NCBI GenBank assembly: GCA_003164815.1
Contig: PLUF01000051.1
Location: 18,533 to 82,532, forward strand
DNA from: Candidatus Gagatemarchaeum stordalenia
GTDB lineage: Archaea; Thermoproteota; Nitrososphaeria; Nitrososphaerales; Gagatemarchaeaceae
DNA length: 64,000 bases
Direction: 5' to 3'
Positions 15,573 through 36,297 of this stretch are shown piece by piece. The position numbers were made by a program, and so were the translations under genes. The notes under the pieces are model-generated. The model worked only from the letters and a program-made list of their open reading frames with translations. It made no database searches and was not told the origin of the DNA. Positions within the stretch are counted from its first letter, which is position 1; the number at the start of each line of letters is the position of its first letter.

Positions 15573-16335
15573 ACAGGAAGAGATCGCCCCCAGGAACCTC
15601 TTCGAGCCGAAGGTGAAGAGCCCCATCCTGATCTGCGGGCTTCCGGGGAGTGGGTACGTCGGGAAGCTGGCCGTCGACCACCTGGTAGCGTCGTTCAAGG
15701 GGAAGCCATTCGAGGAGTTCTACTCCGGAAGCTTTCCACCGCACGCGAACGTGGATGAGGGGGGGATCGGCCGCGCGATAAGGGGCGAGCTCTACCACTG
15801 CGAGACTGGGCAGCGGAACGACCTTCTCGTGTTCACCGCCGACGCTCAGCCCACCACCTCAGAGGGTGAGTACGAGCTCTCGGAGATGGTCCTCCGGGGG
15901 GCGATGAAGCGGGGCGCGACGACCGTCTTCTCGCTGGCCGCATACATAACCGAAGGGTTCACCGCGGAGCAGCGGGTCTTCGGCGCCGCGACCTCGCAGG
16001 AGCTGCTCTCCGAACTCACCGAGAACGGTGTCAGGGCGATGAAGGAGGGCGGGATAAGCGGTATGAACGGCATAATCATCGGGATGGCCGGGCTCCTCGG
16101 ACTTGACGGCGCGTGCCTCCTGGGGGAGACTTCTGGGTACCTCGTCGACCCGGTCGCGTCCCAGGTCGTTTTGGAGGCGCTCTCCAAGATCCTGAAGCTC
16201 GACATCGACCTCACGGCGCTCAAGGACAGGGCGAGCGAAGCGAAGGAACTTATCGGAAAAATCCAAGGAATGTCCGACGAGGGCGCGGACACCCGCGGGG
16301 CAGTGCGCTCAGGCCAACCCGGTTACATCGGCTAG
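15562..16335 (+). CDS. PAC2-family protein (proteasome-assembly-chaperone-like)
   Basis: A 257-residue member of the PAC2 family. The glycine-rich opening ILICGLPGSGYVGKLAVDHL, the central LLVFTADAQPTTSEGEYELS, VFSLAAYITEG and the GMNGIIIGMAGLLGL segment are family features. Eukaryotic relatives help assemble 20S proteasomes; the archaeal role is unproven, though psmB lies 8 kb away. TTG start inside the end of the PDCD5-related gene. Its stop shares CTAG (16332-16335) with the stop of convergent rtcB. Confidence 0.85.
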   Translation: MESRQEEIAPRNLFEPKVKSPILICGLPGSGYVGKLAVDHLVASFKGKPFEEFYSGSFPPHANVDEGGIGRAIRGELYHCETGQRNDLLVFTADAQPTTSEGEYELSEMVLRGAMKRGATTVFSLAAYITEGFTAEQRVFGAATSQELLSELTENGVRAMKEGGISGMNGIIIGMAGLLGLDGACLLGETSGYLVDPVASQVVLEALSKILKLDIDLTALKDRASEAKELIGKIQGMSDEGADTRGAVRSGQPGYIG

Positions 16336-17789
16336 CCCTTGATGTTGCCGATAGGCCTCAGGGCAGCTACCTTCAGGGATATCCCGGCCGTGTGCATAGT
16401 CTCCACGACCTCCGAGATGTCCTTGTAGGCAATGCCAGCCTCCTCGGCGAGGCCGTCGTAGGTCGCGGCCTTCACGTAGATCCCCCTCTTCTCCATGCTC
16501 TTCTGGAGGGCCTCGCCGTTCACGTCCCTCCTCGCGGCCGTCCTGGACATGGTCCTCCCCGAGCCGTGGGCCGTAGACCCGAACGTGTCGGCCATGGCCT
16601 TGGCAGTCCCCAGGAGCAGGTAGGACCCGGTCTCCATGGAGCCCCCGATGATGACGGGCTGTCCGATCTGACGATATGGAGCGGGGATGTCCGGGTGGCC
16701 GGGCCCGAAGCTCCTCGTCGCGCCCTTGCGGTGCACGACCAGCTCCCGGGTCGCCCCGTCAAGAGCATGCTTCTCCACCTTGGCGATATTGTGACAGACG
16801 TCGTAGATGATGTGCATGTCCAGCGCCTCTGGGTCTCGGTGGAAGACCTTCTGGAACGCCTCCCTCACCCTGTGGACGATCACCTGGCGGTTCGCGAAGG
16901 CCATGTTCGCCGCGCAGGCCATAGCGCCGTAGTAGTCCTGGCCCTCGTTCGAGGAGAACGGGGCACAGGCGAGCTCCCTGTCCCGCACCTCGATTCCGTA
17001 GCGCTTCATCGCGCCGTCGAAGATCCGCAGATAGTCGGACCCGATCTGGTGCCCGAACCCCCTCGACCCGCAGTGGATCATGATGACGACCTGGTCGTCG
17101 TGGACGAGCCCGAAGTTCTTCCCCATCTTCGCGTCGAAGAACCTGGACGGGTCGACGACCTGAATCTCCAGATAGTGGTTGCCCGAGCCCAGCGTCCCGA
17201 GCTGCTGGATGCCTCGGCTCGAGGCCTGCCGGCTGACCTTCGCCGGGTCTGCGCCCTTGATGAACCCGCCCTCCTCCACCATCTTCGCGTCCTCGTCCCA
17301 GCCGTAGCCGTTCTCGCTGCACCACTTGACCCCCCAGCGCATTACTTCCTCGAAGCCCGGCTGGTTGACCTTCACGAACCCCTTGACGCCCACGCCGGTC
17401 GGGACGAGCTGGAAGAGCAGGTCGATGAGCTCCTTTACCTTCGGCTTGACCTCCTTTAGCCGCAGATTGGTGCGGATGAGGCGCATGCCGCAGTTGATAT
17501 CGAAACCGATCCCTCCGGGCGAGATGACCCCCTTTTCCGGGTCAAACGCCGCGACGCCGCCTATCGGGAACCCGTAGCCCCAGTGGGCGTCGGCCATGGC
17601 ATAGGAGTATCGCTGGATCCCCGGGAGCGAGGCCACGTTGGTCACCTGCTCGATGACGCCCTGGTCCATCCCCTCGAGGAGCTTCTTGGTCGCGTAGATT
17701 CGGGCGGGGACGTTCATCCCTTGCTTGTAGCTCACCGGGATTTCCCAGATGACCTCTGAGACCTGCTTAGTTTGTGGAGGCACTGGCAT
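16332..17789 (-). CDS. rtcB: RNA-splicing ligase RtcB
   Basis: GTP- and Mn-dependent ligase joining a 2',3'-cyclic phosphate or 3'-phosphate end to a 5'-OH. It seals tRNA and other RNA exons after EndA cutting. Metal ligands and motifs are intact: DINCGMRLI, GSGNHYLEIQ, HCGSRGFGHQIG, DVCHNIAK, HRKGATRSFGPGHP. The guanylated His lies in AHGSGR (His408). Length 485 residues, no intein. A GACTTAAACTCC box lies about 43 bases upstream. Archease, its activator, is the next gene upstream on the same strand. It is the expected ligase for the predicted carB intron in this window. Confidence 0.97.
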   Translation of the reverse strand: MPVPPQTKQVSEVIWEIPVSYKQGMNVPARIYATKKLLEGMDQGVIEQVTNVASLPGIQRYSYAMADAHWGYGFPIGGVAAFDPEKGVISPGGIGFDINCGMRLIRTNLRLKEVKPKVKELIDLLFQLVPTGVGVKGFVKVNQPGFEEVMRWGVKWCSENGYGWDEDAKMVEEGGFIKGADPAKVSRQASSRGIQQLGTLGSGNHYLEIQVVDPSRFFDAKMGKNFGLVHDDQVVIMIHCGSRGFGHQIGSDYLRIFDGAMKRYGIEVRDRELACAPFSSNEGQDYYGAMACAANMAFANRQVIVHRVREAFQKVFHRDPEALDMHIIYDVCHNIAKVEKHALDGATRELVVHRKGATRSFGPGHPDIPAPYRQIGQPVIIGGSMETGSYLLLGTAKAMADTFGSTAHGSGRTMSRTAARRDVNGEALQKSMEKRGIYVKAATYDGLAEEAGIAYKDISEVVETMHTAGISLKVAALRPIGNIKG

Positions 17790-31960: not shown

Positions 31961-33130
31961 ATGGAGAAAACTGAGGGGAGCAATCCGGCCGTCCTTCTTC
32001 TTGAGGATGGTTCGCTCTTCCTCGGAAAGGGTTTCGGTGCCGAGACGACGACGGTCGCCGAGGTCGTCTTCACCACGGGCATGGTTGGATATCCCGAATC
32101 AATGACCGATCCCTCCTTCGCGGGACAGGTCCTCACGTTCACCTACCCGCTCATAGGGAACTACGGAGTCTCGAGCATGCAGGACCTCGATCTCATGGGC
32201 CTTCCCCAGCAGTTCGAGTCGGAGTCGATCAAGGTAAGCGGGATCGTGGTGCAGGAGAACTGCGAGCGTCCGAGCCACTGGTCCTCCAGACGGACGCTCT
32301 CGGAGTGGATGCGCAACGAGGGCGTCCCTGGCATAAGCGGCGTTGACACGAGGTCGCTGGTCACCAAGCTCAGGGAGAGGGGAGTGATGATGGGCATCCT
32401 CGCCAACGGGGTCGAGCTCTCATCCAAGAGCGAGCTGTTGAAGCTTCTCAAGCGGTCCACGAAGTACGGTTCGATCGATTTCGTGAAGAAGGTCTCCCCG
32501 AAGAAGGCTCAGGTCTACGGCGACTCCGAGAGGTCGGTCGTCCTCCTCGACTGCGGGACCAAGCTCAGCATAATCCGCAACCTCCTCACGAGGGGCTACA
32601 AGGTGGTGAGAGCGCCCTACGACTACTCATACGCGGACGTAGTGAAGCACGATCCCGTGGGTGTGGTCGTAAGCAACGGGCCCGGTGACCCCGTCCTCTG
32701 CGGGGCGACGATCGCGACGGCAGCGAGGCTCATCGAGTCGGAGATGCCCACGCTGGGCATCTGTCTCGGCCAGCAGCTCGTGGCCATCTCGCAGGGCGCG
32801 ATCACGTACAAGCTGAAGTACGGCCACCGGGGACAGAACAAGCCGATCGTAGACCTCGCCTCGGGGAGGGGTTTCGTAGCGAGCGAGAACCACGGTTACT
32901 CGGTCGACGGGGCGAGCCTCGACCGGACGGACCTCAAGCCCTGGTTCGTGAACGCGGACGACAAGAGCATCGAGGGGCTCATCCACACGAAGAAGCCGTG
33001 CATGTCGGTCCAGTTCCATCCCGAGGCATCTCCAGGGCCCTACGACGCCCAGTTCGTCTTCGACAGGTTTGCCTCCCTCATGGACGGCAGGAAGATGGTA
33101 GGTGAGAAAGTTCGAACCATGAAAATGTGA
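31961..33130 (+). CDS. carA: Carbamoyl-phosphate synthase small subunit
   Basis: Glutaminase subunit feeding ammonia to CarB for arginine and pyrimidine synthesis. The class I amidotransferase site is LGICLGQQLVA with Cys268, and the His/Glu pair lies in QFHPEASPGPYD. The N-terminal domain shows LEDGSLFLGKGFGAE and EVVFTTGMVGYPESMTDPSF. 389 residues is normal. Its TGA overlaps the carB GTG by three bases (GTGA at 33127-33130). Confidence 0.96.
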   Translation: MEKTEGSNPAVLLLEDGSLFLGKGFGAETTTVAEVVFTTGMVGYPESMTDPSFAGQVLTFTYPLIGNYGVSSMQDLDLMGLPQQFESESIKVSGIVVQENCERPSHWSSRRTLSEWMRNEGVPGISGVDTRSLVTKLRERGVMMGILANGVELSSKSELLKLLKRSTKYGSIDFVKKVSPKKAQVYGDSERSVVLLDCGTKLSIIRNLLTRGYKVVRAPYDYSYADVVKHDPVGVVVSNGPGDPVLCGATIATAARLIESEMPTLGICLGQQLVAISQGAITYKLKYGHRGQNKPIVDLASGRGFVASENHGYSVDGASLDRTDLKPWFVNADDKSIEGLIHTKKPCMSVQFHPEASPGPYDAQFVFDRFASLMDGRKMVGEKVRTMKM

Positions 33131-36100
33131 AGAAAGCGATAGTTCTGGGAAGCGGGGCAATAAAGATCGGAGAAGCCGGCGAGAGCCGCTAAAGCGGCCG
33201 CCAATTCGACTACTCCGGCAGCCAGTGCCTCAAGGCCCTGAGGGAGGAAGGAGTCGGCTCCCTCTTGGTCAACCCGAACATCGCGACCATCCAGACCGAC
33301 TCAAGGATGGCCGACAAGATCTACTTCCTGCCCGTCAACCCAGACTTCGTCACGGCGGTGATCGAGAAGGAGCGGCCGGATGCCATCATGCTGGGGTTCG
33401 GAGGGCAGACCGCGCTGAACTGCGGGGTTGGTCTCGCGAGGAGGGGGATACTCGAGAAGTACGGTCTGAAGGTCCTCGGCACTCCGATCTCCGGGATCGA
33501 GATAACGGAGGACAGGGAGCTCTTCAAGGAGGCCATGCAGGACGTCGGGATTTCCGTTCCCAGGAGCAAGCCGGCTTACTCCCTCGAGGACGCGAAGCGG
33601 ATAGTCAAGGAGATTGGTTATCCGGTCATCCTAAGGGTCGCGTACACGCTCGGGGGGAGGGGAGGCGGCGTCGCGCGGAACGACAGGGAGCTCACCGAGA
33701 TCGTCCAGAGGGGGCTCAACCTCAGCATAGCGCACCAGGTCCTGATTGAGGAGTACATCGGGCACTGGAAGCAGATCGAGTACGAGGTGATGCGCGACAG
33801 GATCGAGAACAGCATGGTCGTCTGCAACATGGAGAACGTCCTCAGCATGCGGGTCCACACGGGGGACAACATCGTCGTCGCGCCCTCGCAGACGATCACC
33901 AACAGGGAGTACCACATGCTCCGGTCCCTCTCCCTCAAGGCAGCCGCCAAGTGCGGGATACTGGGCGAGTGCAACATGCAGTTCGCGCTCGAGCCGGGTT
34001 CGGAGCGGTACAACGCCATCGAGATCAACGCCCGGCTCTCGCGGTCATCGGCCCTCGCGTCCAAGGCCACCGGCTATCCCATCGCATACATCGCCGCGAA
34101 GCTCTGTCTCGGATACACCCTCGAGGAGCTCAAGAACAAGGTCACGGGCGTGACCACGGCCCTCTTCGAGCCCTCGCTCGACTACGTCGTCGTCAAGATG
34201 CCGCGGTGGGACACGAAGAAGTTCGAGGGGGCGTCGAGGAACATCGGGACGGCCATGAAGTCCATAGGGGAGGTCATGGCGATAGGCAGGACCTTCGAGG
34301 AGTCCATCCAGAAGGCGGCCAGGATGCTCAACATCAGGTACGACGGCGCGATAAGAAGGTTCGTGGAGACCGACGACCTGGCGGTCCTGAGGGAGAGGCT
34401 GAAGAACCCGACGGACCAGATAATCTTCGACGTCGTGGAGGCGCTGATGGTGGGCCTCCCCGAGGACGAGGTGAGCAGGCTCAGCGTCATCGACCCATGG
34501 TTCGTGAACAAGCTCAAGAACATCGTGGAGATGTACGGGCTCATTACCAAGAGCGGGAAGGAGGGGATTGAGAGGGACCCCACGCTCGTGCGCGACGCGA
34601 AGAGGCTTGGGTTCTCCGACAAGCAGATCGCCGCAGCCGTGGGCATGGACGAAGACCACGCGAGGTCGCTCAGGGAGAGGATGGAGATAAGGCCAGTCAC
34701 GAAGGTCATAGACACGCTCGCCGCGGAGTGGCCCGCGCGCACAAACTACCTCTACATGACCTTCAACGGCAGCGAGGATGAGGCCAAGCCCACGAAGGCG
34801 CGGAAGGTCATGGTCCTGGGGGCCGGCCCGTACCGCATCGGTAGCTCCGTGGAGTTCGATTGGGGGACCATGAACATGGCGTGGGCGCTGAAGGCCAACG
34901 GGGTGGAGGAGGTCGTGGTCGTCAACTGCAACCCCGAGACGGTCTCCACTGACTTCGACATGAGCGACAGGCTCTACTTCGAGGAGCTGACCGTCGAGAG
35001 GCTGCTGACGATATACGAGAGGGAGAGGCCGATCGGGGTCGTCCTCTGCGTCGGCGGACAGATACCGAACGACCTGGCCCTTGAGCTCGACCAGAACGGG
35101 GTCAGCATCCTCGGGACCACCGCGGAGTCAATCGAACGAGCGGAGGACAGGGAGAGGTTCAGCTTCCTGCTGGACAAGCTCGAGATCCCGCAGCCGAAGT
35201 GGGGGAGCTTCAGGTCGACGAAGCAGGCCAGGGACTTCTGCGAAGGGGTCGGGTACCCCGTGATCGTCCGGCCGTCCCACGTCCTCAGCGGGTCGGCCAT
35301 GAGGGTGATCTGGGACAGCAGCGAGCTCGACACCTTCCTTGCCAAGGCGGTCGAGGTCAACCCCAACTACCCGGTGACGATAAGCAAGTTCATCGAGGAC
35401 GCCAAGGAGGTCGAGGTCGACGGCATCTCGGACGGGGAGACCACGGTCATCGGCGCCATCATGGAGCACGTGGAGAGGGCCGGCGTCCACTCGGGAGACG
35501 CTATCATGACCATCCCCACAATCACCGTGAACCCCGCGGCCAAGCAGAAGATGCGCGACTACAGCCGCGCGATAGCCCGCGAGCTCGGGGCCAAGGGGCC
35601 GTTCAACATCCAGTACCTCGTCGTGGGGGACGACGTGCAGGTCATCGAGTGCAACCTCAGGGCCTCCCGGTCGATGCCCTTCGTCTCGAAGGCCACCGGG
35701 ATGAACCTCATCGAGCTCGTCGCGCCCGTGCTGCTCGGAGGGAAGCTCACGGGCCTAGTGGACGCGCCGGAACCGAAGGGGTTCGCTGTGAAGGCGCCCC
35801 AGTTCTCATTCATGCAGATGGAGGGCGCGGAGCCCACGGTCGGGGTTGAGATGAGGTCGACCGGCGAGGTCGCATGCTTCGGCGACACGCTCCCCGAGGC
35901 GATGAGCAGGGCCCTCATCGCGTCCGGGCTCAGGATCCCTCAGAAGGGCGAGACCGGGATAATACTCGCTGACGAGAAGTCCGACATGAAGAGGATGCGG
36001 TCGCTGGTGGAGGGCTTCGCCGGGGCGGGGATCGTTTTCGTGACCACACAGTCCCTCGCGAACGGCCTCGGGTCAGGCATGGCCAGGGCCTCGACGACGG

Positions 36101-36297
36101 ACGAGATGGCCGAGATGCTCGCCAGCGGGAAGGCGTCGTTCGTCATCTCACTCAGCACGAACCTGAACAAGATGAGGAGAGACCTCTTCAAGGTAAGGAG
36201 GAAGGCGGTCGAGCTCCAGATCCCGTTCCTGACGACGCTCGAGGAGGGCGAGGTCATCCTCATGTGCGTCCTGTCACCGCTGAAGAGCCTCATCTAG
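33127..36297 (+). CDS. carB: Carbamoyl-phosphate synthase large subunit, interrupted by a predicted 21-base intron
   Basis: Makes carbamoyl phosphate from bicarbonate, ammonia and two ATP. Read as join(33127..33183, 33205..36297) it gives 1049 residues, the normal length. Without splicing it stops at TAA 33190-33192 after 21 residues. Exon 1 is VKKAIVLGSGAIKIGEAGE; exon 2 begins FDYSGSQCLKALREEG, together the conserved CarB N-terminus. The rest has both ATP-grasp halves (VAYTLGGRGGG, EIEVDG-like and KVMVLGAGPYRIGSSVEFDW), the oligomerisation domain between them and a C-terminal MGS-like allosteric domain. GTG start overlaps the carA stop. If the intron is not removed, translation could only restart at TTG 33265, losing about 46 residues of the first domain. 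Confidence 0.93.
33184..33204 (+). other. Predicted 21-nt archaeal micro-intron (bulge-helix-bulge) in carB
   Basis: Seen directly: GGCG (33178-33181), bulge AGA (33182-33184), GCCGC (33185-33189), loop TAAA (33190-33193), GCGGC (33194-33198), CGCC (33199-33202), bulge AAT (33203-33205). GGCG pairs fully with CGCC and GCCGC with GCGGC. This is the 4-bp central helix, two 3-nt bulges and intron hairpin of an archaeal splicing site. An outer helix between 33167-33175 and 33210-33218 (one mismatch) encloses it through an asymmetric internal loop, so it is a relaxed form. Cutting after base 2 of each bulge removes 21 nt with the TAA and joins GAG to TTC, restoring Glu-Phe of the invariant CarB motif. 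Splicing itself is inference. Confidence 0.8.

Follow-up and report, generated by a model that had tools for sequence, protein, structure and literature searches.

The carB gene in the window (the whole 64,000-nucleotide stretch of archaeal DNA analysed here) is interrupted by a short insert that is very probably a bulge-helix-bulge (BHB) mRNA intron, which would be cut by EndA and whose exons would be joined by RtcB. carB occupies 33127-36297, directly 3' of carA. The insert lies between GAG (33181-33183) and TTC (33205-33207), and an in-frame TAA at 33190-33192 shuts the reading frame. When 33184-33204 are deleted, a continuous CarB ORF is obtained whose first 160 residues align without gaps to E. 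coli CarB, with the junction at E25|F26. No second carB was found on searching the window's genome, and CarB production must require removal of the predicted intron from the mRNA. The genes and gene segments concerned are as follows.

31961-33130, forward strand: carA (389 aa), from the ORF list and sequence; named from its sequence and its position before carB
33127-33183, forward strand: carB 5' exon, VKKAIVLGSGAIKIGEAGE, aligning to E. coli CarB residues 7-25
33184-33204, forward strand: predicted 21-nt intron, AGCCGCTAAAGCGGCCGCCAA, from the sequence and comparison with relatives
33205-36297, forward strand: carB 3' exon, beginning FDYSGSQ (TIGR01369, 1336.9 bits, scored on the carB portion 3' of the in-frame stop only)
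16335-17648, reverse strand: RtcB RNA ligase gene (PF01139, E=1.7e-169 at G000:C64:34867-36180)

The GTG start of carB overlaps the TGA stop of carA (33127-33130), so carB is probably translated by coupling, and an unspliced mRNA would yield CarA together with a stub of 21 residues. The longest carB ORF that can be called (33265-36297) opens at an internal TTG; automatic annotation of intron-bearing genomes therefore probably yields a truncated CarB.

An earlier sequence-only reading had described the bases, coordinates and frame of this site, the TAA, a central 4-bp helix, an AGA bulge, a hairpin and an outer helix, all of which we find as described; a further outer helix, P2, had been missed. 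The elements of the predicted structure are these.

33154-33159, forward strand: outer exon-exon helix P2, 5' strand GGGGCA, pairing with 33226-33231 (pairing counts, folds)
33167-33175, forward strand: exon-exon helix P1, 5' strand, pairing with 33210-33218 (pairing in intron-bearing versus intron-free genes)
33178-33181, forward strand: central helix, 5' strand GGCG, pairing with 33199-33202 (covariation and consensus fold)
33182-33184, forward strand: 5' bulge AGA, predicted cut AG|A (insert comparison; standard EndA cleavage rule, PMC2738675)
33185-33198, forward strand: intron hairpin GCCGC-TAAA-GCGGC (covarying stem)
33199-33202, forward strand: central helix, 3' strand CGCC (covariation and consensus fold)
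33203-33205, forward strand: 3' bulge AAT, predicted cut AA|T, the consensus loop extending to 33207 (insert comparison, consensus fold)
33210-33218, forward strand: exon-exon helix P1, 3' strand (pairing in intron-bearing versus intron-free genes)
33226-33231, forward strand: outer exon-exon helix P2, 3' strand TGCCTC (pairing counts)

EndA cleaves each bulge on the 3' side of its second base (PMC2738675). Cuts at AG|A and AA|T would excise 33184-33204, exactly the 21 nt that had been predicted, keeping the frame and leaving one ORF of 1,049 residues; this junction is also the one seen in intron-free relatives and in E. coli CarB. Two bulges flank the 4-bp helix at the exon-intron borders. 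The earlier claim that both are of 3 nt stood for the 5' AGA and failed on the 3' side, where an internal loop of 5 nt, AAUUC, precedes the resumption of exon pairing in the consensus fold; with this larger loop the motif departs from the strict 3-4-3 form and is a relaxed BHB. A single-sequence fold of the window site recovers the structure at an unexceptional energy (z -0.52), and energies were modest over the sites folded (z -0.5 to -2.5). The strength of the structural case is comparison, not single-sequence folding energy.

Across carB loci the inserts range from 20 to 32 nt. Half of the 42 distinct inserts (21) have lengths indivisible by three, and each of the remaining 21 contains a stop codon in frame, so that translation cannot pass through any form of the insert. 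All are flanked by GGCGA(A/G) on the 5' side and TT(C/T) on the 3' side, and they share the layout A, stem, loop, stem, CG(C/T)(C/T/A), A(A/G), with T in place of the first A in L051. In the insert alignment, four of the five hairpin stem pairs show changes on both sides (45 such cells); shuffles gave a mean of 15.9 double-change cells and reached 45 in none of 500, while sliding the stem partners lowered pairing from 96.5% to at most 56%. The central helix varies only from G-C to G-U; the exception is the outer pair, where 8 of the 42 distinct sequences have G.A. Two odd introns, one with a 3-bp stem (L050:2963-3015) and one a 32-nt insert with a long loop (L070:1763-1827), keep the central helix and the junction.

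The exons themselves are constrained at the RNA level. Amino acids of the 5' exon are conserved despite its separation from the rest of the gene by a stop or frameshift, and third bases of the pairing exon codons are nearly fixed in intron-bearing genes, in AT-rich and GC-rich genomes alike, whereas the same third bases drift in intron-free carB. Codon -2 is GGC in 58/58 intron-bearing versus 3/32 intron-free genes, codon -5 is GGA in 57/58 versus 5/32, and codon +3 is TAC in 58/58 versus 21/32. All eight pairs of P1 are kept in 58/58 versus 6/32, and P2 is fully paired in 47/58 versus 0/32; as the two groups share descent, Fisher values for these contrasts overstate independence and are not to be taken literally. 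P2 also came up when the window site and several other loci were folded. On this comparison, P1, P2 and the frozen synonymous sites are an RNA-level constraint laid upon protein-coding bases. To our knowledge, exon pairing as long as P2 is not a requirement for BHB cutting, and P2 is kept only in intron-bearing carB.

We also looked at the enzymes that such an intron would need. RtcB, encoded in the window, is the likely exon-joining enzyme. Most genomes of the window's family carry two paralogs of EndA (PF01974). In the window's genome one of them matches the catalytic Aeropyrum pernix alpha subunit, including the histidine in DHAPF (structure 3AJV is the H133A mutant of the Aeropyrum pernix subunit; PMC6379350), and the second lacks that histidine. 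The latter lies about 5 kb beyond the window end on the same contig (G000:C64:87383-87637). Thaumarchaeota EndA has been reported as the (alpha-beta)2 type (PMC4090602), which has broad specificity and accepts relaxed motifs (PMC6379350); the two paralogs fit this type and would then assemble as a heterotetramer.

Members of the window's genus and family, among them the complete single-contig genome G013, carry an insert of 21, 22 or 24 nt at the identical codon boundary, and in the rest of the family the exons are contiguous with no insert, so the check on related carB genes suggested by the sequence-only reading came out in its favour. A scan of genome contigs gave 80 Nitrososphaeria carB loci. 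The insert was present in 64 and absent in 33 of 97 readable Nitrososphaeria carB sites (drawn from the first 100 loci, a few of which repeat one genome). Of 400 genomes of the order, 212 were matched by a covariance model of the site at E <= 1e-10; they belong to several families, and 22 of them consist of a single contig. With few exceptions there was one locus per genome, and all 31 match loci fetched were carB with the insert. Twelve weaker matches were left out, and the one inspected (G052) was intron-free carB. No strong match outside the order was found in 300 genomes drawn from the phylum. Weak matches there had 33-nt spans, the length of the joined exons without an intron, and a 46-nt weak match in G490 was not at a carB site. 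Named organisms with the insert include Ca. Nitrosotenuis chungbukensis MY2 (L038) and Nitrosotalea sp. TS (L068). Judging from these genomes, a carB intron of 20-32 bases is present at a fixed point in many ammonia-oxidising archaea and their relatives.

On the CarB tree, intron presence needs 6 changes, compared with 26.8 in shuffles. This fits vertical descent with repeated exact losses better than frequent transfer, although the count alone cannot separate gain from loss. Losses were placed in a single lineage (L040), in some members of the window's family and inside Nitrosopumilus. The order probably had the intron early on and then lost it several times by exact deletion. When the complete, intron-bearing G013 was compared with 1.2 Mb of the intron-free G017 by tblastn both ways, an analysis that detects introns differing between the two and would let shared ones escape, carB alone stood out as a conserved gene clearly broken by a frameshift or a stop. 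Other candidates resembled the ends of ORFs, upstream sequence or spurious frames on the antisense strand, the top one having been read at sequence level.

The BHB intron proposed at these boundaries is supported by intron-free relatives, frame-breaking variants, compensatory stem changes, synonymous constraint and the presence of EndA and RtcB. An assembly or sequencing error, a vector or linker remnant (a NotI-like GCGGCCGC lies within the insert) or a dying gene might be suspected, given that the assembly holding the window is in 115 contigs. At the same base, differing inserts with compensatory changes recur in genomes obtained independently by many projects, some of these genomes being single-contig (complete G013 has a frame-breaking 22-nt insert); they already refute such an artefact, whose probability we regard as practically nil, and agree with the earlier statement that a sequencing error cannot create a structured 21-nt insert. 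A group I or II self-splicing intron was rejected, its ribozyme core alone being hundreds of bases and the whole insert 20-32 nt.

Two further readings accept the insert as real. A stop-bearing hairpin within a coding gene superficially resembles translational bypassing, in which ribosomes would hop across the hairpin; T4 gene 60 and the byps of yeast mitochondria are examples of bypassing. Known bypassing needs matching take-off and landing codons; here take-off would be at GAR, whereas the triplet before TTY is CAA, TAA, AAA, AAG or CAG, never GAR, in the 42 distinct inserts. The BHB layout, conserved central helix and long-range exon pairing suit EndA and are unnecessary for hopping, which makes bypassing highly improbable. 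Alternatively, CarB might be made in two pieces or from an internal start such as TTG 33265, with a dispensable N-terminal piece, and gene callers would indeed choose this TTG, which opens the longest listed ORF. We find this scarcely credible, as the 5' exon keeps its amino-acid constraint, the residues lost would be a conserved CarB motif, and synonymous exon sites are frozen with their pairing preserved.

Under the BHB intron reading, we infer the following route. Once carAB is transcribed, its carB exons would pair around the insert through P1 and P2, so that the central 4-bp helix (GGCG/CGYN) is presented between two bulges. An (alpha-beta) EndA would cut once in each bulge, between the second and third bases, and set free a hairpin of 20-32 nt; RtcB would then join GA(A/G) to TT(C/T), restoring the N-terminal ATP-grasp sequence IGEAGE-FDYSGSQ of CarB. 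Since unspliced carAB mRNA would give CarA and only the stub, EndA and RtcB activity could in principle set the amount of complete carbamoyl-phosphate synthase, with P1 and P2 as a switch; we consider such a regulatory step unlikely.

Archaeal pre-mRNA splicing has been shown for cbf5, with introns of 16-44 bp, unconventional BHB motifs and lineage-specific loss (PMC2738675). The earlier remark that known archaeal mRNA introns are longer is therefore wrong, and 21 nt is not unusually short for the carB intron. The cbf5 introns of Desulfurococcales and Sulfolobales (Watanabe 2002; Yokobori 2009, PMC2738675) resemble that of carB in being BHB-like and often relaxed, in their 16-44 bp size, and in often breaking the frame, with vertical descent, lineage-specific losses and a heteromeric EndA. 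They differ in gene and class, and in having been shown to splice where splicing of the carB intron is predicted; the class here is Nitrososphaeria, of which Cenarchaeum and Nitrosopumilus were given a score of 0 for the cbf5 intron (PMC2738675). According to a 2020 study, which described a further intron in a Haloferax 5' UTR, cbf5 had until then been the sole mRNA example (PMC7714728). The Haloferax intron, in HVO_1309, is also a BHB element in an mRNA and is cut by EndA, but lies outside the reading frame and meets a euryarchaeal EndA. Archaeal tRNA and rRNA BHB introns share the motif and the predicted enzymes with the carB intron, which differs in its protein-coding mRNA host and has no tRNA body for recognition. 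No earlier report of a carB or thaumarchaeal mRNA intron was found in the open-licence literature, and one may exist elsewhere.

In the literature searched, confirmed introns within archaeal reading frames come from essentially one gene, crenarchaeal cbf5. carB is a new gene, in a new lineage and class, for this kind of intron, its splicing being predicted, and it encodes a central enzyme of arginine and pyrimidine synthesis. The host class includes abundant ammonia-oxidising archaea and offers dozens of natural variants and many exact losses. In intron-bearing genomes carB is likely mis-annotated, with a late start or as a pseudogene, and the carB inserts would form a natural series of mRNA substrates for EndA.
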